A DNA stretch of 64,000 nucleotides from Dehalogenimonas sp. W (GTDB taxonomy: Bacteria; Chloroflexota; Dehalococcoidia; Dehalococcoidales; Dehalococcoidaceae), in assembly GCF_037094495.1 (NCBI RefSeq), contig NZ_CP146612.1, forward strand, positions 1,426,001-1,490,000, read 5' to 3'. Below, in pieces: positions 4,561-64,000 of the stretch. Numbering within the stretch: position 1 is the stretch's first letter; each line of letters opens with the position of its first letter. The notes beneath the pieces are model-generated. The model worked only from the letters and a program-made list of their open reading frames with translations. It was not told the origin of the DNA and made no database searches. The translations under genes were made by a program, and so were the position numbers.

Positions 4561-5785
4561 GCGGTTTTTGGGCCTGATAGCGACCGGTATATTGCTGTTG
4601 GCGGCGATAGCGCCGGTACCCGCGGCGGCTGAAGAGCTGAATATCAGCAGTATGAATTACGCCGCTTCATTTCCGAATTCCCTCAGTTTCACCCTGAAGG
4701 CTACAGCACCGGTTGAAATTGTGGATGCCCGGTTGCATTATCAGGTGCAGCGGCAGGGCTTCGCCGAGGTGTTCAATGAAGTCATCGTGAAGGTGGCTCC
4801 GGCGACGGACGTCAGCCTGAGTTATTCACTTAATTTGCGCCGGGTAGGGGGCTTGCCGCCCGGAGTCGTCATAGATTATTGGTGGACGCTTTATGACGCC
4901 GGCGGGCGGGAATATGTCACTGAAGTGAATAAGCTGACTTTTAACGATGAGCGCTACCAATGGCGGGCGCTGTCTGAAGGGTTGGTAACATTATACTGGT
5001 ATAACGGTTCAGATTCATTCGCCGGCCAACTGATGGCTACGGCCCAGCAAGCTCTGGATAAACTGGAGAACGATACCGGTGCCCGATTGAGCGAACCGGT
5101 TAATATTTACATTTACGATAGTGCCCAGTCACTTCAGGGTTCCATGGTGTTTCCTCAGGAATGGACCGGCGGGGTCGCCTTTACTAATTTCAATACCATA
5201 GCCATCGGTATAGAAACCTCCAGTTTGACCTGGGGAAAGCGGGCCATCGTCCACGAGTTGGCGCATGTGGTAACCAACCAGGTGACGGCTAACCCATACA
5301 ACAGCATTCCGACGTGGTTGAACGAAGGCTTGTCTATGTATGCCGAAGGGCCGCTGGATGCCCTGTATGTCGTTTTTTATAACAGCGCCCGGGATCAGCA
5401 AAGCCTGATTTCAGTGCGCAGTCTGACCAGTCCGTTTTCGGCTGACCCCGCATTGGCGTATCTGTCCTATGCAGAAAGTTATCATGTGGTGAAATACCTG
5501 ATTGATACCTACGGTCAGGACAAGATGAGCCGCTTTCTCGATCAGTTTGCTGAAGGCGCCAGCGCCGACGGTGCCTTGGAGGCAGTGTACGGTTTTGACT
5601 TGGAGGGGTTGGACGCCGAATGGCAGGAATACGCCTATAATGCCGTGCCGGACCGGTTTCAGTCCGCTGTGATATGGACACCATGGCTGGTGCTGCTTAT
5701 AGTCCTCGTATCTGGAGCTTCGGTAATTATTGCCGTGTGGCTGTTTTATCCCCGGATGGTCAGGGTGGAAAGGGTGGATCAATGA
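4553..5785 (+). CDS. Secreted/membrane-anchored HExxH metallopeptidase (peptidase MA-like)
   Basis: A 410-residue protein with an N-terminal signal peptide (about 1-26, ending APVPAAAEE), an extracytoplasmic beta-rich region (30-140), a zinc peptidase domain and a C-terminal membrane segment (about 373-398). Zinc ligands are visible as HELAH (234-238) and the glutamate of WLNEGLSMYAEG (E258), the spacing of gluzincin MA-clan peptidases. It starts at GTG 4553, overlapping the prfB stop by eight bases (GTGAGTAA), and its TGA overlaps the ATG of the next gene, so it is co-transcribed with prfB and the lipoprotein. The substrate is unknown; an outward-facing, membrane-tethered protease is the inference. 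Confidence 0.8.
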   Translation: MSKRFLGLIATGILLLAAIAPVPAAAEELNISSMNYAASFPNSLSFTLKATAPVEIVDARLHYQVQRQGFAEVFNEVIVKVAPATDVSLSYSLNLRRVGGLPPGVVIDYWWTLYDAGGREYVTEVNKLTFNDERYQWRALSEGLVTLYWYNGSDSFAGQLMATAQQALDKLENDTGARLSEPVNIYIYDSAQSLQGSMVFPQEWTGGVAFTNFNTIAIGIETSSLTWGKRAIVHELAHVVTNQVTANPYNSIPTWLNEGLSMYAEGPLDALYVVFYNSARDQQSLISVRSLTSPFSADPALAYLSYAESYHVVKYLIDTYGQDKMSRFLDQFAEGASADGALEAVYGFDLEGLDAEWQEYAYNAVPDRFQSAVIWTPWLVLLIVLVSGASVIIAVWLFYPRMVRVERVDQ

Positions 5786-7407
5786 TCAGACGGTTGCTGA
5801 CTCCCGTGCTGAGCGCGGTACTGGTTTTCTCAATAATTCTCACCGGTTGTACCCCTGGAGGCGGCGACACGCTACCCCCCCCCGGCAGTGGCGGCCGATT
5901 GAATCTGGCGGCAACTGAGCCTTATAACCTGGACCCGGCGCTGGTGGGGGATGCCGGCGGCCTGACGTTTGTCAGCCAGATTTTCACCGGGCTGGTGAAA
6001 GTGACCGCGACCGGTGTTGAGCCGGATATCGCCGCCGGCTGGGTGATTAGCAATGACGGTACCGTTTATACTTTTACCCTGCGGCAGGACGTCCTTTTTC
6101 AGGACGGCACCCCGGTGACGGCCGCTGACTTTAAGTATTCCTGGGAACGGGCGCTGACGCCGGCCACCGGCAGCACCACCGCCCGGACCTATCTGGGCGA
6201 TATTCTCGGTGCTGAGGCAATGCTGGCCGGGGAATCGTCGTCATTGGCTGGAGTCAGGGTGATTGACGACTATACCTTGGAAATCACCATAGATACCGCC
6301 CGGTCCTATTTTCTGTCCAAACTGACGTATGCCACCGCTTTTGTGGTGGACGCGGCTAACGTTGCCGAAGGCGGGGAATGGTGGCGCAGCCCCAACGGCA
6401 CCGGGCCGTTCAAGATGGACCAGTGGGCGACTGACGCCTACATCATGCTAAAAAAGAATGAAAGCTACTACGGCGGCGTGCCGTCGCTGGATTCGGTAGT
6501 ATTTAAATTCTTGGCCGGGCGGGCCATGGACCTTTATGAACTGGGTGAAGTTGACGTGGCCGGGGTTGACCTGGCCTATATTGACCGGGCGCTGGATCCC
6601 GCAGGTGTATTTGCCGCGGATGCGCAGGTGATATCTCAGCTAAGTCTGTATTTTCTGGGTTTCAACAGCGCCGAAGCCCCTTTTGATGACCCGCTGATCC
6701 GTCAGGCTTTCTCCCTGGCGTTGAACCGGAATCAACTGATGGCACTGGTTTTCAACAACATGAACCAGGCGGCGGAAGGTATTGTACCGCCGGGTATTCC
6801 CGGGTATGACCCGGATAAAACGGGCATCGGCTTTGATCCGGAATTGGCTCGGGAGCTGATTGCCCGGTCATCATACGGCAGTGTAGCCAATTTACCCGAG
6901 ATAACGCTGACTACTCTGGGTTATGGGGGTCTTATTGGCTCTGATCTGGAAGCGGTTATTCATCAGTGGCAGGTGAATCTGGGAGTAGAAGTTAAAGTCC
7001 GGCAACTGGAGCCGGAGGTCTTTCTGTATAACCTGAAACAGGAAAAAGATCAGATATTTTACCAGGGCTGGATCGCGGACTACCCGCATCCGCAGAATTT
7101 TCTGGAAATTCTGTTTCAGACCGGAGCCGACAACAACTGGGGTGGATACAGCAATCCCTTGGTTGACCAGTTGCTGGCGCAAGCCGCGATGTTGACCGAT
7201 GAGGCGGCCAGCGAAGCGCTGTACCGGCAGGTGGAGGAGATACTGGTGGCGGATGCGGCAGTCTGGCCGTATTATTTTGGCCGCAGCTACCTGCTGGTCA
7301 AACCGTATGTGAAAGGCTATGAACTCAGTCCGCTGGGTGTGCCTGTGCTGCAAAACGTCAGCGTTGACCGGGCGGTGGAGGCTCCGACCGGGCTTACGGT
7401 GAGTTAA
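5782..7407 (+). CDS. ABC-type oligopeptide/nickel-like solute-binding lipoprotein (SBP family 5)
   Basis: A 541-residue family 5 extracellular solute-binding protein of the DppA/OppA kind. The start at ATG 5782 overlaps the previous stop (ATGA) and gives a clean lipoprotein signal with lipobox ILTGC (Cys23). Family features include the N-terminal ATEPYNLDPALVGD segment, the VLFQDGTPVTAADFKYSWER motif and the C-terminal YQGWIADYPHPQNFLEILF stretch. No ABC permease or ATPase genes are adjacent, so it is an orphan binding protein that must either work with a transporter encoded elsewhere or act alone. The ligand cannot be told from sequence. Confidence 0.9.
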   Translation: MIRRLLTPVLSAVLVFSIILTGCTPGGGDTLPPPGSGGRLNLAATEPYNLDPALVGDAGGLTFVSQIFTGLVKVTATGVEPDIAAGWVISNDGTVYTFTLRQDVLFQDGTPVTAADFKYSWERALTPATGSTTARTYLGDILGAEAMLAGESSSLAGVRVIDDYTLEITIDTARSYFLSKLTYATAFVVDAANVAEGGEWWRSPNGTGPFKMDQWATDAYIMLKKNESYYGGVPSLDSVVFKFLAGRAMDLYELGEVDVAGVDLAYIDRALDPAGVFAADAQVISQLSLYFLGFNSAEAPFDDPLIRQAFSLALNRNQLMALVFNNMNQAAEGIVPPGIPGYDPDKTGIGFDPELARELIARSSYGSVANLPEITLTTLGYGGLIGSDLEAVIHQWQVNLGVEVKVRQLEPEVFLYNLKQEKDQIFYQGWIADYPHPQNFLEILFQTGADNNWGGYSNPLVDQLLAQAAMLTDEAASEALYRQVEEILVADAAVWPYYFGRSYLLVKPYVKGYELSPLGVPVLQNVSVDRAVEAPTGLTVS

Positions 7408-7440
7408 TTCCGGGAAGCCTATCGGGAACGGTGGGGAAAA

Positions 7441-7530
7441 TGGCGGAGGGTGTGGGATTCGAACCCACGGTTCCCTTGCAGGAACAACGGTTTTCAAGAC
7501 CGTCACCTTAAACCGCTCGGACAACCCTCC
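7441..7530 (-). tRNA. tRNA-Ser (UGA anticodon)
   Basis: On the minus strand a class II tRNA of 90 bases begins GGAGGGTTGTCCGAGCGG and ends in an encoded CCA (7443-7441). The acceptor stem is GGAGGGT/ACCCTCC, the T loop is GGGTTCGAATCCC, and a long variable arm is present as expected for serine. The anticodon loop CTTGAAA gives anticodon TGA at 7496-7494, reading UCA-type codons. It sits between the convergent lipoprotein and sensor kinase genes. Confidence 0.97.
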
Positions 7531-7584
7531 ATGGCAGGCCCGGAAACCAGCGGGCGTGAGCGTTATTTTATCACGAGCGGCTGT

Positions 7585-10137
7585 TTATTGCACGGCTGCG
7601 ACGGTGGGATCCAGCGGTAACTCAATGATAAAAGCGGTATCCTGACCCTCGGCGCTTTTAACCCGGACCGTGCCGCCATGGCTGGTGACAATGCCATACA
7701 CAATGGACAGCCCCAGTCCGGTACCCTGACCCTCCGGTTTGGTGGTGAAAAAGGGATCAAAAAGGTGTTTCTGTTGCTCCGGACTGATAGCCGGCCCTGT
7801 ATTGGCCAGCGTCACCCGGATTTTGCTGCCGGCAACTTCTGTGGCCACCGTCAGACGGCCTCCGTTGCGGGATTCCCGCATGACATATTCGGCATTGATG
7901 ATGATATTCAGAAAAACCTGTTGCATTTGCGCCGGGTCGGCCTTGATCTCCGGCAACTCCGGTGATAGATGTAAAACAACCTCAATATTATTAACTTTGT
8001 GCTCGTAAGCTCGAAGCAAAAAGGTCTCAGTGAGGACGTCGTTGAGCTGAGTCGGGCGTTTGAATGCCTCGTGGCGGCGGGCAAAGGTCAGCATATTGCG
8101 AACAACCTTAACGGTGCGCTGGGCTTCGGAGTAGATGGTGTTTACGTCCTCCCTGATGTCAGCCGGCAAGGTTTTCTCCTTGAGCAGTTCGGCAAAACCC
8201 AGGACACCGGTCAGGGGGTTGTTGATTTCGTGGGCGATTCCCGCGGCGAGTTCGCCGACTGAGGCCAGCCGGTCGGTGATGATCAATTTTTCCTGCATGG
8301 CTTTACGGTCGGTTATATCCCGGGCCAATCCCATCATAAAGGTTTGACCGTTGATATCAACTTTTTGCGCATGTATCTCCACCGGAACGTTGTGTCCGTC
8401 TTTGTGGTGGTGAACGGTCTCAAAGACCGCGCTGTTTTGCTCCAGCACCCGGGAAATGTTTTGTGGTAAGGCTGAAAGGTTTTCGGGCGCCACGATTTTA
8501 TCCAGTGTCAGGTCCATGAATTCAGACTGAGTATAGCCCAGCGATTTGTGAGCCTGTTCGTTAAAATACTTGAATTTGCGAGAACCGGCCTCTACCACGA
8601 AGATACTGTCCAACGAAGCGTCCAGTAACCGGGCCCGGAGCGCCAGGTCCTGTTGCGCCCGATTACGATCAGTTACGTCCCAGACGGTGGAGATCATCAG
8701 GTTTTGCTCCGGCAGCGGGATATTGATGGCGCTGATGACATGTTCCGACCCATCCTGGTGGACAATCGGAATATTTTCCCAGACCATACGTTCCGGGTCT
8801 CCGGAGTTGATGTCGGACATGATTCTTTGCTGAATCTTGTGACGATACTCCGGATCAGGGTAGACGTGTTTGAAGAATTCAGTCACATCGGAAATTATTG
8901 CCGCCGGCCAGCCGTAGATAGCCTCAAATTGTCGGTTAATATATTCAAAAGGTTGATCCGGTGCGTTGACCGCCAGGCCGATCGGCAGATTGTCGGTAAC
9001 TGTTTCAATAAACTGATTGCGGCGCGCCAGTTCCGCCAGATGGCGCGCCGCTTCAGCGCGTTTGCGGATTTTTTCAATACCGAGCGATAAATCCTGGGAT
9101 ACTTCCTCAATCAGATCGAATTCTTCCTGGTCAGCAAAGGCCTGGGCATTGGCAGAGCAAATACTGAAAGCGCCGATTACCTGATTATGCACGATTAGGG
9201 GCATAGATATGGCCGTGGCAAGCAAGCTGTCAGCATAACTGGCGCGAACGACCGGGTGGATGTCCTCTACTCGCTCGCTGCCAAATTCCTGCAGACAGCG
9301 TTCATAATCGGCCAGTTCACCGGCATGGACTGCCGGTTGCAGCAGCCCGTCGGTGTCAGCCAGCGCAATCCAGGCGACGTTATAATCCGGATGCTGGACG
9401 GTTCTCCGGCAGGCCTTGGCCAGCAAGGCGGTTTCTTCTTCCTCCTGGACGATGAGTTGATTGATATCCCTGATCAAGCTCAAAACCCTATTCAGGTAGA
9501 CGATTTTTTCCGTGTGCTTGCGGCGTTCAGAAACATCCTCCAGCAGGGTAACAATGCCCCATGGTGAGCCTTCAGTACCTTTGAGCAGGGCCGAGCTATA
9601 GCGGGCCGGGAAAGAAGTGCCGTCAGGACGAATGATATCGTGTTCAATGACGCCGCTTTCACCTTCTCTGATGGTATGTCGTACCCCGGCGGTGAGCTCC
9701 GAATGTGATTCTGGCGTGAAAAAATCGTAAATACTCATACCGAAAAGTTCAGCCGGTTTATCCAGGCAGGACATACGGAATGCTGCGGGGTTGAATTCTA
9801 CGATTTTGCCGTTAAGGTCTGTGACTACCACCCCCTGGGTGAGGGCATCAAACATCACCCTCAATTTTTCTTCAGCCTGTTTCAGGAGCTGATTGGAACG
9901 CCTTAACCGGCTCATGGAAGATCGTATTAAGAAAAACAGGAGGGCGGCAGTGATGACGACGAACCCTAGTCCTTTAAACGTTTGTAGGGATGCGATAGAA
10001 CCAGGATCGCTGACTATCATAGCCACGAAACGGTCAGAAAATACGATCCAGATTACCGACACGACAAGATAAATGAGGGTGATGGTCAGCGGGGATAAAC
10101 TCCTGAGCCTGGTTGATCCGGAATCAGTTTGCAACAT
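7585..10137 (-). CDS. Membrane-anchored PAS/GAF sensor histidine kinase
   Basis: An 850-residue hybrid-free histidine kinase. Two N-terminal membrane helices (about 16-35 and 52-72) are followed by a coiled segment, a PAS domain (about 90-205), a GAF-type domain (about 220-365), two more PAS domains (about 375-495 and 495-620), then HisKA with the phospho-acceptor in GIAHEINNPLTG (His636) and a HATPase_c domain with N, G1 (DPFFTTKPEGQGTGLGL) and G2 boxes. GGAG lies ahead of ATG 10137. No response regulator is adjacent, so it is an orphan kinase; its partner may be elsewhere. It is divergent from glnA, with 184 bases between the start codons, so a nitrogen-related role is possible but unproven. 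Confidence 0.92.
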   Translation of the reverse strand: MLQTDSGSTRLRSLSPLTITLIYLVVSVIWIVFSDRFVAMIVSDPGSIASLQTFKGLGFVVITAALLFFLIRSSMSRLRRSNQLLKQAEEKLRVMFDALTQGVVVTDLNGKIVEFNPAAFRMSCLDKPAELFGMSIYDFFTPESHSELTAGVRHTIREGESGVIEHDIIRPDGTSFPARYSSALLKGTEGSPWGIVTLLEDVSERRKHTEKIVYLNRVLSLIRDINQLIVQEEEETALLAKACRRTVQHPDYNVAWIALADTDGLLQPAVHAGELADYERCLQEFGSERVEDIHPVVRASYADSLLATAISMPLIVHNQVIGAFSICSANAQAFADQEEFDLIEEVSQDLSLGIEKIRKRAEAARHLAELARRNQFIETVTDNLPIGLAVNAPDQPFEYINRQFEAIYGWPAAIISDVTEFFKHVYPDPEYRHKIQQRIMSDINSGDPERMVWENIPIVHQDGSEHVISAINIPLPEQNLMISTVWDVTDRNRAQQDLALRARLLDASLDSIFVVEAGSRKFKYFNEQAHKSLGYTQSEFMDLTLDKIVAPENLSALPQNISRVLEQNSAVFETVHHHKDGHNVPVEIHAQKVDINGQTFMMGLARDITDRKAMQEKLIITDRLASVGELAAGIAHEINNPLTGVLGFAELLKEKTLPADIREDVNTIYSEAQRTVKVVRNMLTFARRHEAFKRPTQLNDVLTETFLLRAYEHKVNNIEVVLHLSPELPEIKADPAQMQQVFLNIIINAEYVMRESRNGGRLTVATEVAGSKIRVTLANTGPAISPEQQKHLFDPFFTTKPEGQGTGLGLSIVYGIVTSHGGTVRVKSAEGQDTAFIIELPLDPTVAAVQ

Positions 10138-24441: not shown

Positions 24442-25146
24442 TTATTTGCGGTTGTCGGCCATGATACGCTGAAGTTTATCAAAGGTTTCAAACCAGCGGA
24501 GTTTGACTTCATCTGTCCAGTTGGGGTCAAAGGTTGGAAATTTTGCCAGTAATAGTTGATTGGCATCAGGCGTCGAACCGTCCTGAGCAGAGACAGGGGA
24601 TAAGGATTGTGGCTGTGAATTAGTGTCGGCGTCCTGGGGGGGGTGGTGTGTAGTTTTACGGACCTTTTTTGCGGTAGTCGCTCGGGAAGTACGGGATTTT
24701 CGGGTGATGAATGACGACAGGGTAATGCCGGCTTCATCTGCCATGCCGATAAAGAATTTGATGCACTTGCGGTTAACGTCGGCGGTAATCGGGAAATTCT
24801 CCCGTAGTTTTTCCTCCAGCTGGGAATAGGTAGCAGTGGCTGGATCAAGCGCCTGCAGAAAGAACGGATAGGCTTCATGAGCCAGTTGCTGCAGCAAATC
24901 GGAGCGCTGTTGCCCTTTGGCGAACACTATCTGCCGTAAGCGGAGAGTTGGTATGCCGGCGGCGTCAATCATTTTGAGATATTTCAGCGCCGAGATTAAC
25001 TGCCCGCCGGTGCTGCCGGAGAATTTATCCCCCCAGAAACTGCGGTCTATACGCGCAGGTATGGCAGCCTTCAGCCCGTCCAAAAAATTCCAGAACGTGC
25101 GGTAGGACACATAAGGCGGTAGTGATTTGGTAACTGGTAAATTCAT
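24442..25146 (-). CDS. DUF5343-like protein
   Basis: A 234-residue protein with an N-terminal region (about 1-150) resembling DUF5343 (LPPYVSYRTFWNFLDGLK, IDRSFWGDKFSGSTGGQLISALKYLKMID), a winged-helix-like fold of unknown role, a basic serine/threonine-rich linker (150-190) and a short C-terminal helix (PNWTDEVKLRWFETFDKLQRIM). The gene is monocistronic. A very good promoter (TTGTCA-17-TAGAAT, 25161-25189) lies only 14 bases from the ATG, leaving a leader of about seven bases with no ribosome binding site. Confidence 0.7.
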   Translation of the reverse strand: MNLPVTKSLPPYVSYRTFWNFLDGLKAAIPARIDRSFWGDKFSGSTGGQLISALKYLKMIDAAGIPTLRLRQIVFAKGQQRSDLLQQLAHEAYPFFLQALDPATATYSQLEEKLRENFPITADVNRKCIKFFIGMADEAGITLSSFITRKSRTSRATTAKKVRKTTHHPPQDADTNSQPQSLSPVSAQDGSTPDANQLLLAKFPTFDPNWTDEVKLRWFETFDKLQRIMADNRK

Positions 25147-25586: not shown

Positions 25587-26786
25587 ATGAAAAAAACGAG
25601 ACTTGCAGCCATTGACGTCGGCACTACCAAAGTGTGTACGATCATGGCTGACGCTGATGAGGCCGGTATCCGGGTGCTCGGCGTCGGCGTGACGCCGTCT
25701 CGTGGCCTCCAAAAGGGTATGGTCGTCAATCTCAATGAAGCACGGGACGCCATCAAGCGTTCGGTTGGTATGGCTGAACAGTCAGCCGGTTATAAGCTTG
25801 ATACTGCCACAGTCAGTATTACCGGACGGCACATTCATTCCACCAACAACCGCGGAGTGGTGGCTATATCAAGGAGAGAAGAGACGGTCAGACCACCGGA
25901 TGTTGCCAGGGTGTTGGAAGTGGCGCGTAACGTCACCATACCCGGTGATAGGCGGATGCTGCATTTGCTGCCCCTGGCATATACGGTTGATGGGCAGGAA
26001 GGGGTCAAGAATCCGGTGGGAATGCACGGGTTCAAGCTGGAAGTGGAAACCCACATGGTCACGGCCTCGGCTACCTCACTGGAGAACCTGGTTAAGTGTT
26101 TTAAGGGCGCAGGTGTCAGTGTGGATGAAATGATTTTCAGCCCATTATCCAGTGCTGAGGCTACACTGTCCACTGATGAGATGCAAAATGGCGTGGTTCT
26201 GGCTGATATCGGCGGCGGCACCACCGATATTGCCGTATATAAAGACGGCAATATTATCCATACCTCAGTGTTACCGGTTGCCGGCTACCAGATTACTCAC
26301 GATATTTCGGTCGGTTTGGGTGTCAGTTGGGAACTGGCCGAGCAAATTAAAATGAAGTACGGTTCGGTCTTTCCGATTGCCGGCGATTCTGAAGAAATGC
26401 TTTCTGAAGGTGGTAATTCATTTCCCCATTCACAACTAACGGAGATTATCCGTTCCCGGCTGGAGGAAATGGTGCGGCTGGTTCTTATGGAAGTGCCCAC
26501 TGAAGATTATCAGAATCTACTGCGGGGCGGAATGGTATTTACCGGCGGGAGCGCCAATCTACCAGGACTGGCTGAGCTTGGAGCCGAGGTAACCAGACTC
26601 CCGGTACGAGTGGGAATGCCTCCGGCAATGTACGGTGTATCTGAAAAACTTAATGACCCGGCTTTTGCCACGGCAATCGGTCTAATCATGTGGAAAGCCA
26701 ATGACCGCACTGGTATTCCGGTAAAGGCCACCGCGGGTCCGTCAGAAGGCGGCGGCAAATTCCTTGGTCTATTCAGAAAAAAATAA
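25587..26786 (+). CDS. ftsA: Cell division protein FtsA
   Basis: Actin-fold ATPase that tethers FtsZ to the membrane. The 399 residues show the phosphate-1 loop (AAIDVGTTKVCTIM, near the N-terminus), the SHS2/1C insert with GYKLDTATVSITGRHI, phosphate-2 VLADIGGGTTDIAVY and the adenosine loop GGMVFTGGSANLPGL. The C-terminus ends in a short amphipathic KFLGLFRKK that fits a membrane-targeting helix. It starts at ATG 25587 after AAGGAG and precedes ftsZ by 25 bases. Confidence 0.93.
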   Translation: MKKTRLAAIDVGTTKVCTIMADADEAGIRVLGVGVTPSRGLQKGMVVNLNEARDAIKRSVGMAEQSAGYKLDTATVSITGRHIHSTNNRGVVAISRREETVRPPDVARVLEVARNVTIPGDRRMLHLLPLAYTVDGQEGVKNPVGMHGFKLEVETHMVTASATSLENLVKCFKGAGVSVDEMIFSPLSSAEATLSTDEMQNGVVLADIGGGTTDIAVYKDGNIIHTSVLPVAGYQITHDISVGLGVSWELAEQIKMKYGSVFPIAGDSEEMLSEGGNSFPHSQLTEIIRSRLEEMVRLVLMEVPTEDYQNLLRGGMVFTGGSANLPGLAELGAEVTRLPVRVGMPPAMYGVSEKLNDPAFATAIGLIMWKANDRTGIPVKATAGPSEGGGKFLGLFRKK

Positions 26787-26811: not shown

Positions 26812-27942
26812 ATGGCTAAGACTATCTATGTCCCCAGTGGTGCCAGGATCAAGGTTATCGGTTGCGGCGGTGCCGGTTGTAATGCGGTGACCCGTATGGT
26901 GCGGGAGCAGATTCGCGGCGTTGAATTTGTCGCGATGAATACCGATGCTCAGGCGTTAGCAGTGACCGAAGCCCCGTTGCGGATCCAGTTGGGTGAACGC
27001 TGTACCCGTGGTTTGGGCGCCGGTGGTGATAATAAAATGGGGCGCAAAGCGGCTGAAGAAAGCAAAGAAGAGATTAAACAGGTCGTCGGGGAATCCGACA
27101 TGGTTTTTGTTACTGCCGGTATGGGCGGCGGTACTGGTACCGGTTCGGCGGCGGTAGTTGCTGCGGCTGCCAAAGCCAGCGGGGCGCTGACTATAGCCGT
27201 AGTGACTAAGCCTTTCAGCTTTGAAGGCACCCACCGCACCAAAGTTGCGGAAGAAGGTATCAACGAACTCATGGAGAATGTGGATACTCTTATCCTGATT
27301 CCCAATGATAGATTGTTTGAAATCTGCGATCAGAAAACCGGCGTGGATGGGGCTTTCCGCATGGCGGATGAAGTCCTGCATCACGGCGTACAGGCTATCG
27401 CCGAGGTTATTACAGTCCCTGGTATTATCAATCTGGATTTTGCTGATGTACGCGCCGTCATGAAAGATGCAGGTCCGGCCTGGATGAGCATCGGCCACGG
27501 CAAAGGGCAGAAACGTGCCATTGAAGCGGCGCGGCAAGCTCTGACCAGCCCATTGCTGGATGTCTCGGTTGAGGGTTCCAAAGGTTGCATCTTTAACGTG
27601 GTCGGGGACAGTTCATTGTCGCTTTTTGAAGTCAACGAAGCTGCCGATGTCATCCGTCAGGCGGTTGACCCGGAAGCGAACGTTATCTTCGGCGTTACGG
27701 TTGACGATTCTATGAAAGACGAAGTTCGTCTGACCTTGATTGCCACTGGTTTTGCCGACCATACCACGGCGCTGGATAGCCGGGACAAGGAAATAACCCG
27801 GTTGCTCCGCAATATCAAAACTGAAAAAGAATTGGAAATCCCGGCATTTCTGCGGCAACGCGGCTTGATGGGTTCTACCCGCCGGCCGGAGCCGGTTCGT
27901 CCGGCTGCGCCCGCTTCACATAGCTTCCAAAAACGCTGGTAA
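26812..27942 (+). CDS. ftsZ: Cell division GTPase FtsZ
   Basis: Tubulin-fold GTPase that polymerises into the Z ring. The 376 residues carry GCGGAGCNAVTRM, the GTP signature GGGTGTGSA, and the T7 loop NLDFADVRAVM. The usual C-terminal FtsA-binding peptide is recognisable as EIPAFLRQRG (about 342-351), but it follows the GTPase core almost directly, without the long disordered linker, and a 25-residue basic/proline tail comes after it. It starts at ATG 26812 after AAGGAG. No murein or MinCDE genes are nearby, consistent with division in a wall-less or S-layered cell. Confidence 0.96.
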   Translation: MAKTIYVPSGARIKVIGCGGAGCNAVTRMVREQIRGVEFVAMNTDAQALAVTEAPLRIQLGERCTRGLGAGGDNKMGRKAAEESKEEIKQVVGESDMVFVTAGMGGGTGTGSAAVVAAAAKASGALTIAVVTKPFSFEGTHRTKVAEEGINELMENVDTLILIPNDRLFEICDQKTGVDGAFRMADEVLHHGVQAIAEVITVPGIINLDFADVRAVMKDAGPAWMSIGHGKGQKRAIEAARQALTSPLLDVSVEGSKGCIFNVVGDSSLSLFEVNEAADVIRQAVDPEANVIFGVTVDDSMKDEVRLTLIATGFADHTTALDSRDKEITRLLRNIKTEKELEIPAFLRQRGLMGSTRRPEPVRPAAPASHSFQKRW

Positions 27943-27992: not shown

Positions 27993-28076
27993 GCCTGGAC
28001 CTAGGTTTGTGGTTCAACCTAACAATTTGCTATTGGGGCGATCCGTTAATTATTTGATTTATTCCGCCTCATCTAT

Positions 28077-28129
28077 AAAAAGAAGAAGACCGTCGGGACT
28101 CCTCCTCCCCCGACGGTCTTCTTCTTTTT
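28077..28129. terminator. Bidirectional terminator between ftsZ and the coiled-coil gene
   Basis: Perfect 21-bp arms (28077-28097 and 28109-28129) flank an 11-base loop; arms begin with AAAAAGAAGAAG and end with CTTCTTCTTTTT, giving U-tracts in both directions. Confidence 0.95.
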
Positions 28130-28142
28130 AGGCACGGGTGTT

Positions 28143-30578
28143 TTAGTTGATGGCACCGAGGGCAACGGCGAACAGCACCGCAGCCAGTACGATACTGAGG
28201 TTGATTACCACCAGTAACGTTATCCAGGTGCCGCTGGTGAGTCTTTTGATAACGGCCCTGACCATGGCCTCCTCAGCCTTGGAGAGGGCCTCATTGGCCG
28301 CCTCACGGGCAGAGGCAGCAACATCTGATGCCCGGGCGGATGACTCACGGGATGATTTTGCCGAATCTTCAGCAGCCCGTACTGCGGTATCGGCGGCAAT
28401 CCTAGCTGATGACTCAGCGTGTTCAGCCCGAGCGCCGGCTGCGTCTGCGGCTTTCTTGGCGGCAGCGGCGGTCATCTCCGCATCTTTGGCGGCCTGTTCC
28501 GACCGACCGGCGGCTTCGGCCGCCAATCTGGCGGCTTTTTCAATGGCCTCTTTGGCACCAGCTTCGGCCCGGGCGGCGGCATCAGCAGCTGATTTTGAAG
28601 CGACTTCAGCCCTAGCAGCGGCTTCGGCCGCCGAACGTATGGCTTCCTCAGCTGCGGTTTTGGCAGCTCTGGAAGACTCTTCTGCCGCCTGTCGGGCGAC
28701 GGTTTCTGCATGTTCGGCGGCCTTTCTGGCTGCTTGTTCTGCGCGAGTAGCCGCTTCGTCAGCTAATTTGCCTGCTGTTTCAATAGCTTCTTTAGCTCCG
28801 GCTTCCGCGCGGGCAGCGGCCTCGGAGGCTGAAGTGGAGGCCACTCCGGCTCGGGCTGAAGCTTCGGCGGCTGAGCGGATGGCTTCATCCGCGGCCTTTT
28901 TAGCCACCTGGGCGGCCTGTTCGGAAGCCTCAAGAGAGGCAGCCACGGCTGCTTCACTAGCCTGGCGTGCGGCGACTCCGGCCTCCTCGGCGTGTTTGAT
29001 GGCATCAGCGGCGGCACTTTCTGCCCTGGCGGTGGCCGTTTCAGTGGTTTGTTTGAAACTCTCCATCGCTTGTTGTGCCCGCTGGTCAACGGCTTCGGCT
29101 TTTTCTGATGCGGCTTCAGCAGCTTGACGGGCCAGGCGGGAAATCTCTGATGCCCTGGCAGCCGCATCTTCGGCAGATTTTTTTACCGCTTCGGCATGAG
29201 TGTTGGCGGATTCTACGGTGGCAGAGGTTAATTTGTCGGCGGCCTCCCCTGAGGTATCTATCAAGTTGTCAGCGGCGTTGTCAGCCAGTTCGGCGATACT
29301 CTTGACATCCGCCGCAACTTTGAAACCGTGCCGGGCTGCTTCTTTGGCGCCGTTGCCGGCCTCGTTAACGCCCGATGCGGCATCCCCGGTAATTTGGGTG
29401 GCGGCTTCAAGCGCGACGTCACCGGCGATATTAGCCAGTTCGCTGCGACGGGCGGTATCTTCTGCGGCACGGAAGGCCGCCGCTGCGGCTGATTTGGCAG
29501 CACGCCCAGCCTTAAGGGCATGAGTAACGGTCTCTCTATTAGGATTATTAGTCAAGGCCTTTGCAGCGCCGGAGGCATTTTCAACGGCGCTTTCAGCGTT
29601 CCGACCGGCGATCAGGGCCTCTTCTATGGATTTCTCCAGAGCTTCCCGAGTGGCCAAAGCGGTTAGTTCAGCCCGGGAGGCAGCCTCCTCGGCTGCGCGA
29701 GCAGCGGCTTGAGCGGATTCACGGGCCGCCATTTCAACGTCCTGAGCCTTGGCGGTAGCTTCTTCAGCAGCATATTTAGCGGCGCGGGCGGTTTTTTCCG
29801 CCTGAGATGCGGCTTCTTCCGCGCGGTGGGCGGCATCAGAAGCAATCTGAGTTGCCTGTTCAGCGGCGTCTTTAGCGGTATTGGAGGCCGATTCTGAACG
29901 GGCGGCGGCTTCTTCCGCCAAACGTTTTGCGGCCTCGGCGGATGCCAAAGCCCGGTCAGCGGCTTCCTTAGCCTTTATCATGGCTTCGGCGGCGGCTCTC
30001 TGGGCAGCCGAGGACGCGTTTTCCGCCTTGGTTGCCGCGGCTTCAGCCGCAGTTCGGGCACTTTCTGATGCTGCCTTGGCTTCTGCTGCCATTTTCTGGG
30101 CGGCCAAACCGGCGGCTTCAGCTCGTTTAGCGGCCTCGTCCGACACTTTAGCGGCGGCTTCTGCGGCTGTTTTAGCCGAGGCACCGGCTATTTCAGCCTT
30201 CTCGGCGGCTTCAGCAGCGGTTTTCTGGAAAACCTGAGCGGCCGCCGCGGCACCCTTTTTAGCTTCTTCTGCCTTGCTGACGGCATCGTCAGCGGCTTTT
30301 TTAGCCTCACCAGCGGCTTTTGCAGCTGACTCGGTTGCCTGTTGGGCAGCCTTTTCCCCGGCTTGGCGGGCTTCCACCGCCCTTTTTTCAGCTTCCTGAG
30401 CGGCTTGAGTAGCATTTCCGGCAGCTCCGGATGCCTGGGCAGCCGCGGCTTCAGCTTGACGGGCAGCCTGGATAGCCGCCCGGATATTGGCATCCATTTC
30501 ATCAAGTATTTGAGGCAACGGCTTGGTTAGAATCTGGGGTTCTTCGCCATGAGATTCGGAATCAATGTTGTCAGACAC
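28143..30578 (-). CDS. Giant alanine-rich repetitive coiled-coil protein with C-terminal membrane anchor
   Basis: An 811-residue protein starting at GTG 30578 (GGAGG at 30590-30586, seven bases away). After an acidic 25-residue N-terminus, about 750 residues are low-complexity Ala/Glu/Lys/Arg helix built from AAExAxRAExA-like blocks, and a single hydrophobic helix closes the protein (about 785-808, WITLLVVINLSIVLAAVLFAVALG). An 80-residue unit (240 bases) is repeated near the C-terminal end, starting AADEAIRSAAEA and AAEEAIRSAAEA. This predicts a long rigid rod, tail-anchored in the membrane. I recognise no family beyond generic apolipoprotein/LEA-like helices. It converges on ftsZ and has its own transcription unit; a scaffold or envelope role is only a guess. 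Confidence 0.85.
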   Translation of the reverse strand: MSDNIDSESHGEEPQILTKPLPQILDEMDANIRAAIQAARQAEAAAAQASGAAGNATQAAQEAEKRAVEARQAGEKAAQQATESAAKAAGEAKKAADDAVSKAEEAKKGAAAAAQVFQKTAAEAAEKAEIAGASAKTAAEAAAKVSDEAAKRAEAAGLAAQKMAAEAKAASESARTAAEAAATKAENASSAAQRAAAEAMIKAKEAADRALASAEAAKRLAEEAAARSESASNTAKDAAEQATQIASDAAHRAEEAASQAEKTARAAKYAAEEATAKAQDVEMAARESAQAAARAAEEAASRAELTALATREALEKSIEEALIAGRNAESAVENASGAAKALTNNPNRETVTHALKAGRAAKSAAAAAFRAAEDTARRSELANIAGDVALEAATQITGDAASGVNEAGNGAKEAARHGFKVAADVKSIAELADNAADNLIDTSGEAADKLTSATVESANTHAEAVKKSAEDAAARASEISRLARQAAEAASEKAEAVDQRAQQAMESFKQTTETATARAESAAADAIKHAEEAGVAARQASEAAVAASLEASEQAAQVAKKAADEAIRSAAEASARAGVASTSASEAAARAEAGAKEAIETAGKLADEAATRAEQAARKAAEHAETVARQAAEESSRAAKTAAEEAIRSAAEAAARAEVASKSAADAAARAEAGAKEAIEKAARLAAEAAGRSEQAAKDAEMTAAAAKKAADAAGARAEHAESSARIAADTAVRAAEDSAKSSRESSARASDVAASAREAANEALSKAEEAMVRAVIKRLTSGTWITLLVVINLSIVLAAVLFAVALGAIN

Positions 30579-30728
30579 CGCATTTCCTCCAGCCTATTAT
30601 TTAAAGCAACAGTGTAAGCTCCTAATTGAAGGAGCAAAAATCGCTTGTGAATAAATCTAATGCTTAGGGTGACGGGTGTCAACTTAAAATATTAGCTGTC
30701 GGATAGCAGAATCAACGTAGCAGGTCCG

Positions 30729-36593: not shown

Positions 36594-37796
36594 GTGACTT
36601 CATTAGCGGTAATTTTGGCGGCTGGCGAAGGGGCCCGCATGCGGCCCTTAACGGCAACCAGACCCAAAGCGATGTTGCCGGTGGCCGGCCGGCCGATCCT
36701 AGAGCACCTGCTGGTTGAATGCCGCGCGGCGGGGATATCTGATTTTATTTTTGTGGTTGGTTTTCGGGAAGAGATTATCAGAAATTATTTTAATGACGGT
36801 AGCAGTTGGGGAGTCAGGATCAGGTACGTTTCCCAGCGACACCCGCTAGGTACTGCTGATGCTCTGCGGCAAGCCGGTCCGTGGCTGCATGCCCCTTTTG
36901 TCCTGATTAACGGGGACGTTGTGGTTAAAGCGGAAGATATCCGATTACTGAAGGAAATGGCGCCGCCGGCTATCAGCCTGGTTGAATGTGATGATGTTAC
37001 CGGAATGGGGGTCGCTGAGGTTTCTGGTTGCCGAGTTGTGAAGCTTCATGAAAAACCTGCTGTGCCGCCGACCCGGCTGGTTAATGCCGGTATATATCAC
37101 CTGTCATCAAACGTGTTGGCGACCGCCGCCAACACGGGTACTTCATCCCGGGGTGAATATGAAATTACAGCCACCCTTCAGTTGCTGATTGATTCAGGGG
37201 TTGAGGTTGGGTATCGGATGATAAATACCTGGCGGGATATCGGCAATCCCTGGGAACTCCTGTCGGCTAACGAAGACTATCTCAGCACCATTGAAAGCTA
37301 TTCTGAAGGCAAGCTGGAACCGGGCTCAATGATTACCGGTCCGGTCTCTATCGGTCGGGATAGTCTGATACGGTCCGGTTGTTATATCACCGGGCCCGTG
37401 ATCATCGGCGCAAATTGTGATATTGGCCCTAATTGTTACATTCGGCCGGCAACCACCATCGGGGACCATTGTCGGCTGGGTGCCGCGGTGGAAATAAAGA
37501 ATTCGGTAATCATGTCTGGTACACACATTCCTCATCTCAGCTATGTTGGCGACAGCGTGATCGGCGAACGATGCAATTTGGGTGCCGGTACCAATGTGGC
37601 CAACGTCCGACTGGACGGTCAAATGGTAATAACCGGACGCGGCGGTCGCCGCAAAGCCGGCGTTATTATGGGAGACAAGGTGCAAACAGGGATTAATTCG
37701 AGCATTAATCCGGGTACCATCATTGGCTGCGAAGCTGTTATCGGTCCGGGGGCGGTAGTTGCCGGTAATATCGGTGCCGGAGCCAGGGTTTTTTAG
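36594..37796 (+). CDS. Bifunctional sugar-1-phosphate nucleotidylyltransferase/acyltransferase-like protein (copy 1)
   Basis: A 400-residue GlmU-like protein of the archaeal ST0452 kind. Residues 1-235 are the nucleotidyltransferase domain (LAAGEGARMRPLTATRPKAMLPVAGRP signature; INGDVVV metal site; NAGIYHL), and 250-400 a left-handed beta-helix of hexapeptide repeats ending in NVRLDGQMVITGRGGRRKAGVIMGDKVQTG. It may convert glucosamine-1-phosphate to UDP-GlcNAc or make a UDP/dTDP-sugar. It starts at GTG 36594; no good ribosome binding site is near. A paralogue and glmS follow, which favours the amino-sugar route. Confidence 0.87.
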   Translation: MTSLAVILAAGEGARMRPLTATRPKAMLPVAGRPILEHLLVECRAAGISDFIFVVGFREEIIRNYFNDGSSWGVRIRYVSQRHPLGTADALRQAGPWLHAPFVLINGDVVVKAEDIRLLKEMAPPAISLVECDDVTGMGVAEVSGCRVVKLHEKPAVPPTRLVNAGIYHLSSNVLATAANTGTSSRGEYEITATLQLLIDSGVEVGYRMINTWRDIGNPWELLSANEDYLSTIESYSEGKLEPGSMITGPVSIGRDSLIRSGCYITGPVIIGANCDIGPNCYIRPATTIGDHCRLGAAVEIKNSVIMSGTHIPHLSYVGDSVIGERCNLGAGTNVANVRLDGQMVITGRGGRRKAGVIMGDKVQTGINSSINPGTIIGCEAVIGPGAVVAGNIGAGARVF

Positions 37797-37802
37797 GGAC
37801 AA

Positions 37803-39011
37803 TTGAGTGGGGCGCTATATAATCAAATGGTGAGACAGGCGATCATACTAGCCGCTGGCGAAGGACAACGACTGAGGCCGTTTACGGCGGCCAAACCTAA
37901 GGTCATGTTACGGGTCGGCGGCAAAGCTATCATTGAACATGTTATTGAGGCACTGGCTGGATGTCGTATCTGCGATATTATTATTGTTGCCGGCTATCAC
38001 CGTGAACAGATTTATGATGCTGTCGGGGACGGTCGAAAGTTCGGTGTTAGTGTCCGATATGTCGTCCAGGAACAGCAGATTGGGACAGCTCACGCTTTAA
38101 TGCAGGCAGCTGATTTAGCGTCTGATACTTTTTTGGTATTGCCAGGCGATCAATATATCACCGCTGACACCGTCAGATGGCTTTCCGATACAGCACCCTG
38201 GGCATTATTGAGCACAACGGTGGCCGATAACCAGACAGTACGGTATGGTGTTGTTAATTCAGAAAACGGGGCATTGCGGTCAATTATTGAGAAACCAAGA
38301 CAGCCCTGCCATGCAAGGGTCAGTACTGGGATATTTGCCCTGAGCCGGGCAATATTTGATCATATTAAAACTGATGGTGATATGCCGGCAGTGGTAAATC
38401 GGATGATCGGCAGCGGCATAGCATTTCAGGAAGTTGAAACTCAAGCCCCCTGGCTGGATGTAATCTATCCGTGGGATTTAATTGCCTTGAACGACCGGAT
38501 ACTGAGGCAACAGGCACCGTTAAATGAAGGGACGATGGAGGCCGGTGTTTACGTTCAAGGTGGTGTTACCATCGGAGTCGGCAGCCGGCTCTGCTCAGGA
38601 GGTTACCTGAAGAGCCCTGTTAAAATTGGACAGGGATGCCGGATAGGGCCGAATGTGGTTATTGGTGCCGGGGTCAGTATCGGGGATAATGTTAACATCG
38701 GGCCTTTCAGCGTCATTGAAGACAGCATCATAGGCAATGATATTACAATCGGCCCTGGGTCATATTTATACAAGTCAGTGGTGGACTCCGGATGTCAAAT
38801 CGGCAGTGGTTTTAAGGCGGTAGCCGGCCCGGCTGAGATACACTTGAACGGAGAGTTCCTCCAGATTGACACCGGTTCCATGGTCGGCGGCAATTGCCGG
38901 ATTGCCGAGGGAGTCGTCGCTTCCCCCGGCAGTATTATCGGTAACGGCTGCTCCGTGGCGGCGTTAAAAGTGATTAAAGGCAATATTGCCGACGGCAGTC
39001 AGGTGGTCTGA
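37803..39011 (+). CDS. Bifunctional sugar-1-phosphate nucleotidylyltransferase-like protein (copy 2)
   Basis: A 402-residue paralogue of the previous gene: NTP-transferase domain (LAAGEGQRLRPFTAAKPKVML; VLPGDQYIT; STGIFAL) and a C-terminal hexapeptide beta-helix (250-400). It differs at the metal-binding segment (PGDQ in place of NGD) and lacks the NVRLDG/GGRRKAG motif of copy 1, so the second domain may not acetylate. The start at TTG 37803 has AGGG upstream; ATG 37827 is an alternative. The tandem pair suggests two sugar nucleotides or a divided GlmU. Confidence 0.85.
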   Translation: MSGALYNQMVRQAIILAAGEGQRLRPFTAAKPKVMLRVGGKAIIEHVIEALAGCRICDIIIVAGYHREQIYDAVGDGRKFGVSVRYVVQEQQIGTAHALMQAADLASDTFLVLPGDQYITADTVRWLSDTAPWALLSTTVADNQTVRYGVVNSENGALRSIIEKPRQPCHARVSTGIFALSRAIFDHIKTDGDMPAVVNRMIGSGIAFQEVETQAPWLDVIYPWDLIALNDRILRQQAPLNEGTMEAGVYVQGGVTIGVGSRLCSGGYLKSPVKIGQGCRIGPNVVIGAGVSIGDNVNIGPFSVIEDSIIGNDITIGPGSYLYKSVVDSGCQIGSGFKAVAGPAEIHLNGEFLQIDTGSMVGGNCRIAEGVVASPGSIIGNGCSVAALKVIKGNIADGSQVV

Positions 39012-39012
39012 C

Positions 39013-40800
39013 ATGTGCGGTATTGCAGGGTACGTTGGGCACCGCGCGGCTCAGCCCATTTTGCACACCGCCCTGGCCAGGCTGGAATACCGCGGCTATG
39101 ATTCCTGCGGTATTGCCGTAGTCGGGGAACAAATGGTTGTGTATAAAAACTCGGGACGGGTTGAGGAAATGACGGCTACCGCTCCAGTGCTTTCAGGAAA
39201 TGCCGGTATCGGTCATACCCGCTGGGCGAGTTGCGGCTTGCCGACCGCGGAAAACGCTCATCCTCACCTGGACTGTAGCAGGCACATTGCGGTGGTGCAT
39301 AACGGTAATATCACCAATTATTTGAGTCTTAAAATCGATCTGGAAACCCGGGGGCATGTTTTCCTGTCCGGTACGGACAGTGAAGTTATCGTCCATCTCA
39401 TTGAAGAGCATTACCATGGGAATGTGGCCGACGCTCTGTCATTGGCGGTCAGACAATTAGAGGGTTCGTATGCGATTGTAGCCCTGCATCAGGAAGAAGC
39501 ACGATTGGCGGCGGTGAAACGTGGCAGTGCTCTGGTTGTCGGATTAGGCGATGGTGAAAATTGGGTTGCTTCTGACGTTAACGCTTTAGCGGAGCATACC
39601 GGTCGGGTTATGTATCTGGAAGAAGGGGACCTGGCGGTTATTGAGCGCGGAGCGGTTGTTATTCTCAATGAAGGCCGACCCGTTGAAAGATTCGTTCATC
39701 CCATAGAATGGCAACCAGATGATGGCGGTAAAGGCGGTTATGCACATTTTATGCTCAAGGAAATCCATGAGCAACCGAGAGTTTTACGGGAAAATATAGG
39801 TAATTGGTTGACCACCGAAATGTCTCCAAAACTCCGTTTATTATGGAACAGATTGTATCAGCCGCCGATGATTTTGGGTTGTGGTAGTTCCTATTACGCC
39901 GGTTTGACAGCCCGCTATTTTATGGAAGAAATGACCAGCCGTCCGGTGAGAGTGGAATTGGCGTCTGAGTTGAATCACCGGCCGGAGACTCCGGAGGCTG
40001 GGCGCCTGGTAATTGGATTAACCCAGTCTGGAGAGACGGCTGATACTTTGAATGCCCTGAATCGTCTCCGACAGTCCGGGGCTGGAATACTAGCCTTCGC
40101 CAATGTGGTCCGTTCCAGCGTTACCAGAATTGCCGATCAGACGATGTTACTTCGGGCCGGGCCGGAGATCAGTGTTGCGGCGACAAAAACCTTTACCGCT
40201 CAATTGGTAAGTTTATATGCGGCGACATTGGCAGCAGTAGGCAGGGATTACAATAGTAATAATGGCCTGGAGGCCCGGCTCAAGGAGCTGCCGGCGCTGG
40301 TCCAGATGTCTCTGGATGATACTGAAGAAGTAATTGATGCTGCCCAATGGCTGACGGGCTTTAGCAACGTTATCTGCATCGGACGGGGTGCTCATTATCC
40401 AATCGCCATGGAAGCTGCCCTGAAATTGAAGGAAGTTGCTTATATTCATGCCGAGGCTTGTTCAGCCGGGGAACTGAAACATGGGCCGTTGGCATTGCTG
40501 AACAGCCGCACTCCGGTAATTGCTGTTTTCGGGTCCCGTGACGATACATGGGAAACAATGTTGACTGCGGTCAGGGAAGTGAAGGTGCGCGGGGCACCGG
40601 TTCTTGCGCTGGTCCCGGGTGATAACGCCAGCGTCAGGCAACTGGCGGACCGGGTCATTTCGGTGCCGCAGGCGGACCGGCGGTTTCAGCCGGCCATCAC
40701 GGCAGTAACAGTGCAACTCCTGGCGTACTACACAGCTCTGGCCCTGGGTTGTCCCATTGATCGGCCTCGGCACCTGGCAAAAAGTGTCACTGTGGAATAA
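39013..40800 (+). CDS. glmS: Glutamine-fructose-6-phosphate aminotransferase
   Basis: GlmS makes glucosamine-6-phosphate from fructose-6-phosphate and glutamine, the first step to UDP-GlcNAc. ATG 39013 (AGGTGG upstream) exposes the nucleophile Cys in MCGIAGYVGHR; an upstream start would bury it. The N-terminal Ntn amidotransferase domain (about 1-215, HTRWASCGLPTAENAHPH, HNGNITNYLSLK) is followed by two SIS domains (280-590; GCGSSYYAG, TQSGETADTL, EACSAGELKHGPLAL) and ends LAKSVTVE. Length 595 is typical. It is the third gene of the sugar-nucleotide operon and overlaps none. Confidence 0.96.
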   Translation: MCGIAGYVGHRAAQPILHTALARLEYRGYDSCGIAVVGEQMVVYKNSGRVEEMTATAPVLSGNAGIGHTRWASCGLPTAENAHPHLDCSRHIAVVHNGNITNYLSLKIDLETRGHVFLSGTDSEVIVHLIEEHYHGNVADALSLAVRQLEGSYAIVALHQEEARLAAVKRGSALVVGLGDGENWVASDVNALAEHTGRVMYLEEGDLAVIERGAVVILNEGRPVERFVHPIEWQPDDGGKGGYAHFMLKEIHEQPRVLRENIGNWLTTEMSPKLRLLWNRLYQPPMILGCGSSYYAGLTARYFMEEMTSRPVRVELASELNHRPETPEAGRLVIGLTQSGETADTLNALNRLRQSGAGILAFANVVRSSVTRIADQTMLLRAGPEISVAATKTFTAQLVSLYAATLAAVGRDYNSNNGLEARLKELPALVQMSLDDTEEVIDAAQWLTGFSNVICIGRGAHYPIAMEAALKLKEVAYIHAEACSAGELKHGPLALLNSRTPVIAVFGSRDDTWETMLTAVREVKVRGAPVLALVPGDNASVRQLADRVISVPQADRRFQPAITAVTVQLLAYYTALALGCPIDRPRHLAKSVTVE

Positions 40801-63332: not shown

Positions 63333-64000
63333 ATGAAATTAATGGTTGTGGGCTGCGGGCAGTGCGGCGGTCGTATTGCCGACCAGTTTTCTAAATTAAA
63401 CCGGGTTGCCCATGTGCGTCGGGGTGTGGATATCGCCACCAATGTGGTCGCAGTAAATTCGGACGTGGCCGATCTTTCCGGGTTGGAGCATATCCGGGCT
63501 GATTACCAGCACCGGATTCTCATCGGTTCTCAAAAGACGTCCGGTCACGGTGTTGGTAAGATCAACGAGATGGGAGCTGAAATTGCTCGTGACGACGGCG
63601 ATAAACTGATTGAGGCAATCAAAAACACCCCTAATTTTGGGGAAACCGACGCCTTTCTGCTGATCGCCGGCGCCGCCGGTGGTACCGGTTCCGGTTCCAT
63701 TTCGGTGCTGTCTCAGCAGATTAAGGAAAGATTTCCGGAAAAGCCGGTATATAACATGCTGGTTTTGCCCTTCGCCTACGAAGAGGCGACTGAGGAACGC
63801 TCGGTTTTCAATGTCGGTATCTGCCTGAAATCCTGCTATCTGGTGGCCGACGCGATATTCCTGGTGGACAACCAGCGGTTTATTAAAGCCAGCCACTCAC
63901 TAAGAGCGAATCTGGATAAGATTAACTATCACATGGTCAAACCGTTTTATAATTTATTATGTGCCGGAGAAGAAAAGAATTCCAAGTATATCGGTTCTAA
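63333..64000 (+). CDS. Second tubulin/FtsZ-superfamily GTPase (3' truncated by window edge)
   Basis: The frame opens at ATG 63333 (GAGGGA upstream) and is still open at base 64000, giving 222 residues. It has the glycine-rich VVGCGQCGGRIADQF start of tubulin/FtsZ proteins, a SQKTSGHGVGKINEMG insert and the GTP-binding tubulin signature as GAAGGTGSGS (113-122), closer to the tubulin form than to the GGGTGTGS of the ftsZ at 26.8 kb. It is therefore a divergent paralogue (CetZ- or FtsZL-like), not the division FtsZ. The C-terminal half with the T7 loop lies outside the window. Role unknown; shape or compartment organisation is possible. Confidence 0.85.
   Translation, partial: MKLMVVGCGQCGGRIADQFSKLNRVAHVRRGVDIATNVVAVNSDVADLSGLEHIRADYQHRILIGSQKTSGHGVGKINEMGAEIARDDGDKLIEAIKNTPNFGETDAFLLIAGAAGGTGSGSISVLSQQIKERFPEKPVYNMLVLPFAYEEATEERSVFNVGICLKSCYLVADAIFLVDNQRFIKASHSLRANLDKINYHMVKPFYNLLCAGEEKNSKYIGS

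Follow-up and report, generated by a model that had tools for sequence, protein, structure and literature searches.

We analysed a 64,000-nucleotide stretch of DNA (the window), bases 1426001-1490000 of the single-contig 1.77-Mb genome of Dehalogenimonas sp. W. On its reverse strand the window carries a gene for an 811-residue, alanine-rich protein with a C-terminal membrane anchor (hereafter, the rod), which converges on the ftsA-ftsZ pair (Table 1). As the original prediction held, the two units meet across a shared terminator, whose hairpin is strong (-36.9 kcal/mol, z -8.5) and had no equal among 200 shuffled sequences. Promoter-like sites of the kind seen upstream of the rod gene numbered 3 against 1.0 expected in shuffles, which is weak evidence. 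A 326-aa frame antisense to the rod gene (28147-29127, +) was considered as a gene and set aside, being most likely a by-product of the alanine codons.

Table 1. Features of the rod locus and of the CetZ-type gene at the end of the window (window positions).
Feature	Position	Strand	Basis or remark
ftsA	25587..26786	+	
ftsZ, convergent neighbour of the rod gene	26812..27942	+	201 bp from the rod gene
Shared bidirectional terminator, ftsZ / rod gene	28076..28130	.	22-bp stem
811-aa tail-anchored alanine-rich rod gene (family A, ftsZ-linked member)	28143..30578	-	GTG start, ORF open throughout
C-terminal transmembrane anchor, residues 785-808	28155..28226	-	hydropathy, conserved tail alignment, charge pattern
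C-terminal arm, residues 466-770	28269..29183	-	AF2 mostly helix, low confidence
Central three-helix domain (predicted), residues 296-465	29184..29693	-	AF2, alignment, profile
N-terminal arm, residues 33-295, Ala-striped helix	29694..30482	-	period ~3.58 in windows
N-terminal motif, residues 14-32, PQILTKPLPQILDEMDANI	30483..30539	-	conserved in alignment
Ribosome-binding site GGAGGA, just 5' of the rod GTG start	30585..30590	-	read from sequence
Promoter-like TTGACA-17-TAGATT	30654..30682	-	10/12 consensus positions
CetZ-type tubulin gene start, runs off the window	63333..64000	+	homologues match Pfam Tubulin, CetZ_C

On the far side of ftsA lies a gene for a 234-aa protein (orf234; 24442-25146, -) with a DUF5343 match below threshold, and this gene is divergent from ftsA in several families, with or without a rod. 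Two tandem genes that we take to be GlmU-like sugar-nucleotide genes, together with a presumed glmS, occupy 36594-40800; they are retained although the lineage is reported to be murein-less. The window ftsZ locus adjoins hemW-lepA and is one of two ftsZ loci in the genome (the other at G000:C1:446928-447992). FtsZ is 66-95% identical at the rod-linked loci of relatives. The other ftsAZ of genus relatives comes after genes that are presumably mraZ- and mraW-like, as the remnant of the division cluster that PMC10608941 describes.

Comparison with the closest relative (G000 vs G001) gave a dN/dS of 0.04 for the N-terminus, 0.15 for the rod and 0.08 for the tail (range over segments, 0.04-0.20), beside 0.02 for FtsZ and 0.22 for HemW, all rough values with dS near saturation. 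Given a dN/dS of 0.04-0.20, the rod gene is under purifying selection.

The protein consists of 36% Ala, has no Cys and only four Pro, and is net acidic (129 D+E vs 101 K+R). It bears all four marks of what we call family A, namely an N-terminal motif, an alanine stripe, a central domain and a C-terminal anchor. The motif has the consensus KILTKPLPxILDEMExNI (core KPLPxILDE); in 45 aligned members the P, P, L and following A are invariant and the L, I, D and E nearly so. PLPxIL has a possible likeness to PAFL in the C-terminal peptide of FtsZ. The Ala/hydrophobic stripe of the window protein has a period of 3.60 (power 7.9 vs at most 4.1 in 1000 shuffles), and periods of 3.57-3.61 were found in 29/29 long family A members read. 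When each residue was assigned by the protein's own phase with the tested residue left out, stripe alanines were still Ala in 83% of the aligned relatives and off-stripe alanines in 27%, a difference that is inflated because Ala tends to be paired with Ala when such repeats are aligned.

The original prediction saw no other domain in this protein, which proved incorrect: apart from the conserved motif, residues 296-465 form a predicted three-helix domain. Modelled alone with AlphaFold2, this centre gave three helices with a mean pLDDT of 95.9 and a pTM of 0.83, and 16 proteins align over its 170 columns without a gap. A profile built from 19 members matched 66/68 long family A proteins, the two exceptions being the split gene of G056 and the protein of G026. 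Outside the domain, the top score within each rod had a median of -84 bits, with a second match above zero in 19/67 long rods, and a profile search showed the domain to be absent from 13/13 proteins of the second coiled-coil family described below (family B). The arms are predicted with low confidence: the N-terminal arm is modelled as helix with a break at 170-172 (pLDDT about 70), and the full-length AF2 model (mean pLDDT 66, pTM 0.36) is poor outside the centre.

The anchor is the single hydrophobic segment of the window protein, centred on residue 797, in agreement with the anchored alanine-rich protein first predicted. Rod length varies widely; the anchor is conserved, and none of the 70 members that bear a transmembrane segment has a second hydrophobic segment. 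In these 70 proteins the 15 residues before the tail carry a net charge of zero or more (70/70; mean +2.3), and the anchor helix is followed by ~6 residues with a charge near zero. With its single C-terminal helix and short outer tail, the window protein fits the tail-anchored class. The charge pattern, the short outer tail and the lack of any other hydrophobic segment indicate that the rod is most likely cytoplasmic and anchored at the inner membrane face, an orientation read from charge alone.

To follow family A we used a profile of the N-terminal 62 residues of members (A1), which found relatives in 53/156 genomes of the order (E<=1e-8) and, at the looser E<=0.001, in 33/393 genomes across the class (eight outside the order, some with weak scores). 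A scan for PLPxILDE[MIL][ED] across 84,980 species, each represented by a single genome, returned 112 stretches. Of these, 81 could be confirmed, 78 loci were retained, and every title is Dehalococcoidia, Dehalococcoidales, Dehalococcoidaceae or Chloroflexi/Chloroflexota. In the genomes searched here, family A therefore appears confined to Dehalococcoidia. At the fetched loci we read 107 members (65 long anchored, 5 short anchored and 37 anchorless, three of the last being cut or split long ones), with lengths from 72 to 915 residues, some of them too long because the first possible start codon was used. The window's genome has three members: the 811-aa rod, a second rod of 443 aa whose gene immediately precedes thrS, and a soluble mini-protein of 100 aa. 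Elsewhere, mini-proteins occur in pairs, with a 127-128-aa protein of motif and anchor beside a 72-78-aa soluble motif protein (L057:4585-5241, L058:192-844, L059:5002-5677).

The window protein had no Pfam or NCBIfam match at E<=1, and among 16 relatives three families were matched, each by a single protein; these matches were weak and to unrelated families, the best being DUF3043 (E 0.0012). No description of family A turned up in the literature searched, which mostly lay outside subscription journals, and the family is apparently undescribed. The trees of the ends and of the centre are in conflict: by the two ends, rods linked to ftsZ in the window's genus cluster with thrS-linked rods, and by the central domain they cluster with other ftsAZ-linked and with unlinked rods. 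The tree of ends is shallow and was not used for counting independent gains.

Rod lengths vary in a constrained manner. The distance from the motif to the central domain took 29 values between 135 and 552 residues, and these values shared a helical phase more closely than any of 2000 random sets (R 0.77, period 3.59 residues). The distance from the centre to the tail motif was also phase-locked (R 0.64; 2/2000 random sets), this end point having been chosen second, after the distance from the centre to the last residue showed no phase-locking (1551/2000 random sets as coherent). Phase-locking implies that both end faces must keep register, or that the arms lengthen in steps of one entire repeat unit or more, or both; duplication of repeat units could produce it. 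Because its alanine positions are conserved, its centre is predicted to be folded and its lengths are phase-locked, the rod is not the plain spacer that had been offered as one possibility.

A conserved neighbourhood with ftsAZ, which the original prediction proposed to look for in relatives, was present in part. A long anchored rod lies within 6 kb of ftsA or ftsZ in 18/48 genomes with such rods, spread over five families (f1, f2, f35, f36 and f16), but 30/48 have no ftsAZ within 6 kb of the fetched long rods, some of these on short contigs, and four congeners are rod-less. These counts depend on the fetched loci and on short contigs; they include G427, whose rod is nonetheless a member of the thrS group, and leave out the rod of G056, which is split in the assembly. 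The chance of a rod falling near ftsAZ is ~2% per rod, in genomes that are related. The arrangement differs between families: the rod is convergent after ftsZ in four genomes of the window's genus, lies past orf234, at the ftsA end of the pair, in three genomes of f2, stands directly or nearly directly before ftsA in five genomes of f35, and is found some 3-4.5 kb from ftsAZ in five genomes of f36; the remaining genome is of f16. A sister group, equally widespread, sits just upstream of thrS-infC-rplT in 22 genomes, a neighbourhood that says nothing about division, and nine genomes have both ftsAZ- and thrS-linked rods. In two genomes, G430 and G444, a CetZ-type gene is found within 1 kb of a rod. 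Seven soluble members of ~203-290 residues, with the motif and no anchor, are encoded between what we take to be a XerC/D-like recombinase gene and uvrC (L060, L061, L063, L064, L065, L067, L068).

The CetZ-type gene that runs off the window leads to family B, a second group of alanine-rich coiled coils with neither anchor nor KPLPxILDE motif. Just outside the window, in the next 3 kb, a 757-aa anchorless family B protein converges on this gene (L126: CetZ-type 5334-6503, family B 6571-8844). Family B proteins have a stripe period of 3.56-3.61 (16/16) and a conserved C-terminal RLExLxxMY segment. The pairing with CetZ recurs across the order: by profile, family B occurs in 78/156 of its genomes, and all 78 have a CetZ-type gene, as do 52/78 order genomes lacking family B. 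A CetZ gene lies within 5 kb of at least 55/81 family B matches and on both sides of at least 18. CetZ-like proteins have already been reported in Chloroflexota-Dehalococcoidia (PMC9871819). Within the order, CetZ is present in 50/53 genomes with family A and in 80/103 without it (Fisher p 0.011, not corrected for kinship), a modest phyletic tie; 35/53 family A genomes also have family B.

Of the 11 genomes of family f1 with >=99% completeness, seven have family A and four do not. Among the seven, G000, G001, G005 and G006 each encode three CetZ, one B and 3-4 members of family A, while G008-G010 each encode two CetZ, one B and three A. The remaining four (G002, G003, G004, G007) have no A, no B and 0-1 diverged CetZ; like the other genomes, each has two FtsZ. 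Since these four form one clade (100% support), the joint loss counts as one event, in which several unlinked loci went missing in one lineage. Their ftsZ-hemW gaps (504-529 bp) contain no rod remnant, and in 3/4 the strongest hairpin is of the window terminator type, its loop being CTCCTCC-like. In two of the four (G002 and G007; L093:10278-10739, L096:10546-11007) ftsA is immediately preceded by a partial FtsA-like gene of 153 aa. FtsAZ is kept where the rod is absent, and the rod is therefore not essential for ftsAZ function; the joint loss suggests that it is the CetZ set, and not FtsZ itself, to which the rods are tied.

We favour, at about even confidence, the reading that the window protein is a cytoplasmic, tail-anchored, spectrin-like rod coupled as a cortical scaffold to FtsZ or CetZ filaments, with a role in division or shape. 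It draws on the anatomy of the sequence, its conservation, the predicted fold of the centre, gene neighbourhoods and joint presence and absence. The C-terminal helix would hold the rod at the inner membrane face; the alanine stripe would pack helices together, with itself or with a partner, so that the rods may self-assemble; and the central three-helix bundle would form a spectrin-like node. The free KPLPxILDE motif would dock on a shared partner away from the membrane. This putative partner would most likely be a tubulin-superfamily filament or an adaptor, FtsZ/FtsA for the window copy and CetZ for others. The ftsZ-linked copy in the window's genome would then serve the division apparatus, and the short soluble motif-only paralogues would compete for, or cap, the same site.

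The main rival, possible though in our view doubtful, is a general cortical scaffold in which the rods stiffen or organise the inner membrane of a cell lacking a wall and have no direct link to tubulin-type filaments, so that adjacency to ftsAZ is inherited gene order. Conservation of anchor and rod throughout, the limited ftsAZ linkage set beside the 22 thrS-linked genomes, and a rod that is dispensable beside FtsAZ are as this rival would have it. However, the rods stand beside ftsAZ in several arrangements rather than in one inherited order, they were lost together with CetZ and family B, and the conserved N-terminal motif along with soluble motif-only paralogues points to a specific partner. 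The scaffold or cytoskeletal element originally proposed is partly supported: it gains from the joint absence with CetZ-type tubulins and with the coiled-coil neighbours of the latter, and loses from the 30 genomes whose rods have no ftsAZ nearby.

A membrane tether for the nucleoid or for another cytoplasmic machine (translation, chromosome resolution) would account for the long rod upstream of thrS and for the soluble members between the presumed recombinase gene and uvrC, but we consider it improbable: the rod is net acidic, unlike DNA binders, and neither Pfam nor NCBIfam shows a DNA- or ribosome-binding domain. Very little speaks for a stress-protectant or lipid-coating amphipathic helix of LEA or perilipin type beyond a composition rich in Ala, Glu and Lys, low hydrophobicity and long helices. 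The 11-residue repeat of such proteins has a period of 11/3 = 3.67, which differs from that of the long members; there is no Pfam LEA match (group 3) for the window protein or its 16 relatives; and a predicted folded centre and a membrane anchor do not suit this type, making it highly unlikely. No more credit attaches to an extracytoplasmic surface-layer stalk like tetrabrachion. A long membrane-anchored coiled coil would fit the S-layer-like wall reported for the lineage in PMC10608941, but the window protein has no signal peptide and no other hydrophobic segment, and in the 70 anchored members the net charge is zero or positive on the rod side of the anchor and near zero beyond it, which places the rod inside the cell.

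Family A offers concrete candidates for how peptidoglycan-less bacteria divide and keep shape, in the form of a structured, membrane-anchored rod with genetic links to FtsZ and, across a bacterial class, to CetZ-type tubulins. The best-studied members of this class lack the usual cell wall, and Dehalococcoides mccartyi is reported to lack murein (PMC10608941). An unlikely but wider idea is a two-part cortical skeleton that replaces murein in Dehalococcoidia, in which alanine rods, tail-anchored and spectrin-like, act as rulers and link FtsZ/CetZ filaments to the membrane. Were this true, rod length would set the distance from filament to membrane, register-preserving indels would change length while the docking motif stays on its face, and the four rod-less congeners would amount to a naturally occurring knock-out. 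Since a single genus holds species with and without rods, the two can be compared directly, and phase-locked lengths allow a simple test of the molecular-ruler idea.

Structural matches to the models were largely of the kind that long helices produce. For the full-length model, Umb1 (8w20; Z 13.2, rmsd 6.1) and a chemoreceptor (2ch7; Z 11.8, rmsd 9.5) were at chance level for long helices, and spectrin repeats (Z 8.7, rmsd 46.7) were in the chance range. With the central domain, Foldseek returned no match at E<=0.001. A second comparison (VIA) listed SMAC/DIABLO (8e2i; Z 12.4, rmsd 3.7 over 160) and a chain of the ciliary central pair (7n6g_6A; Z 14.4, rmsd 2.0 over 146), both at a level borderline for helical bundles, and we claim no kinship with either. 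The maxi type I antifreeze protein 4ke2 shows similar Ala-rich helix packing (residues 531-740, Z 8.5, rmsd 5.5 over 196), and the designed helical repeat 5cwc is a weak sequence match (E 0.001; E 8e-5 for the centre profile); both are without a membrane anchor, and scores in the range of common helical arrangements imply no kinship. TolA also combines a long Ala-rich helix with one membrane helix, but its anchor is N-terminal and its helix periplasmic, unlike family A with its C-terminal anchor and presumably cytoplasmic rod.

Among archaea, coiled-coil genes of unknown function are reported beside tubulin-like genes (PMC9871819), and in Dehalococcoidia, likewise, Ala-rich coiled coils adjoin FtsZ and CetZ-type genes; the coiled-coil families of this class, the anchor, the motif and the phase-locked lengths lie outside the excerpts of PMC9871819. 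EzrA is the bacterial spectrin-like FtsZ regulator (PMC4243239). Neither the window protein nor the 16 aligned relatives matched the EzrA family (Pfam/NCBIfam), and EzrA was not among the 50 structural matches listed for the centre. EzrA has its anchor at the N-terminus and belongs to organisms that build murein. Family A departs from it by a C-terminal anchor, long Ala-striped arms and the KPLPxILDE motif, and is not known to have an FtsZ site. What the two would share is a membrane-linked cytoplasmic rod with a triple-helix bundle, of which family A has one that is confidently predicted, at its centre; failing on sequence family and on the anchored end as a member of EzrA, the rod is probably best regarded as its analogue.
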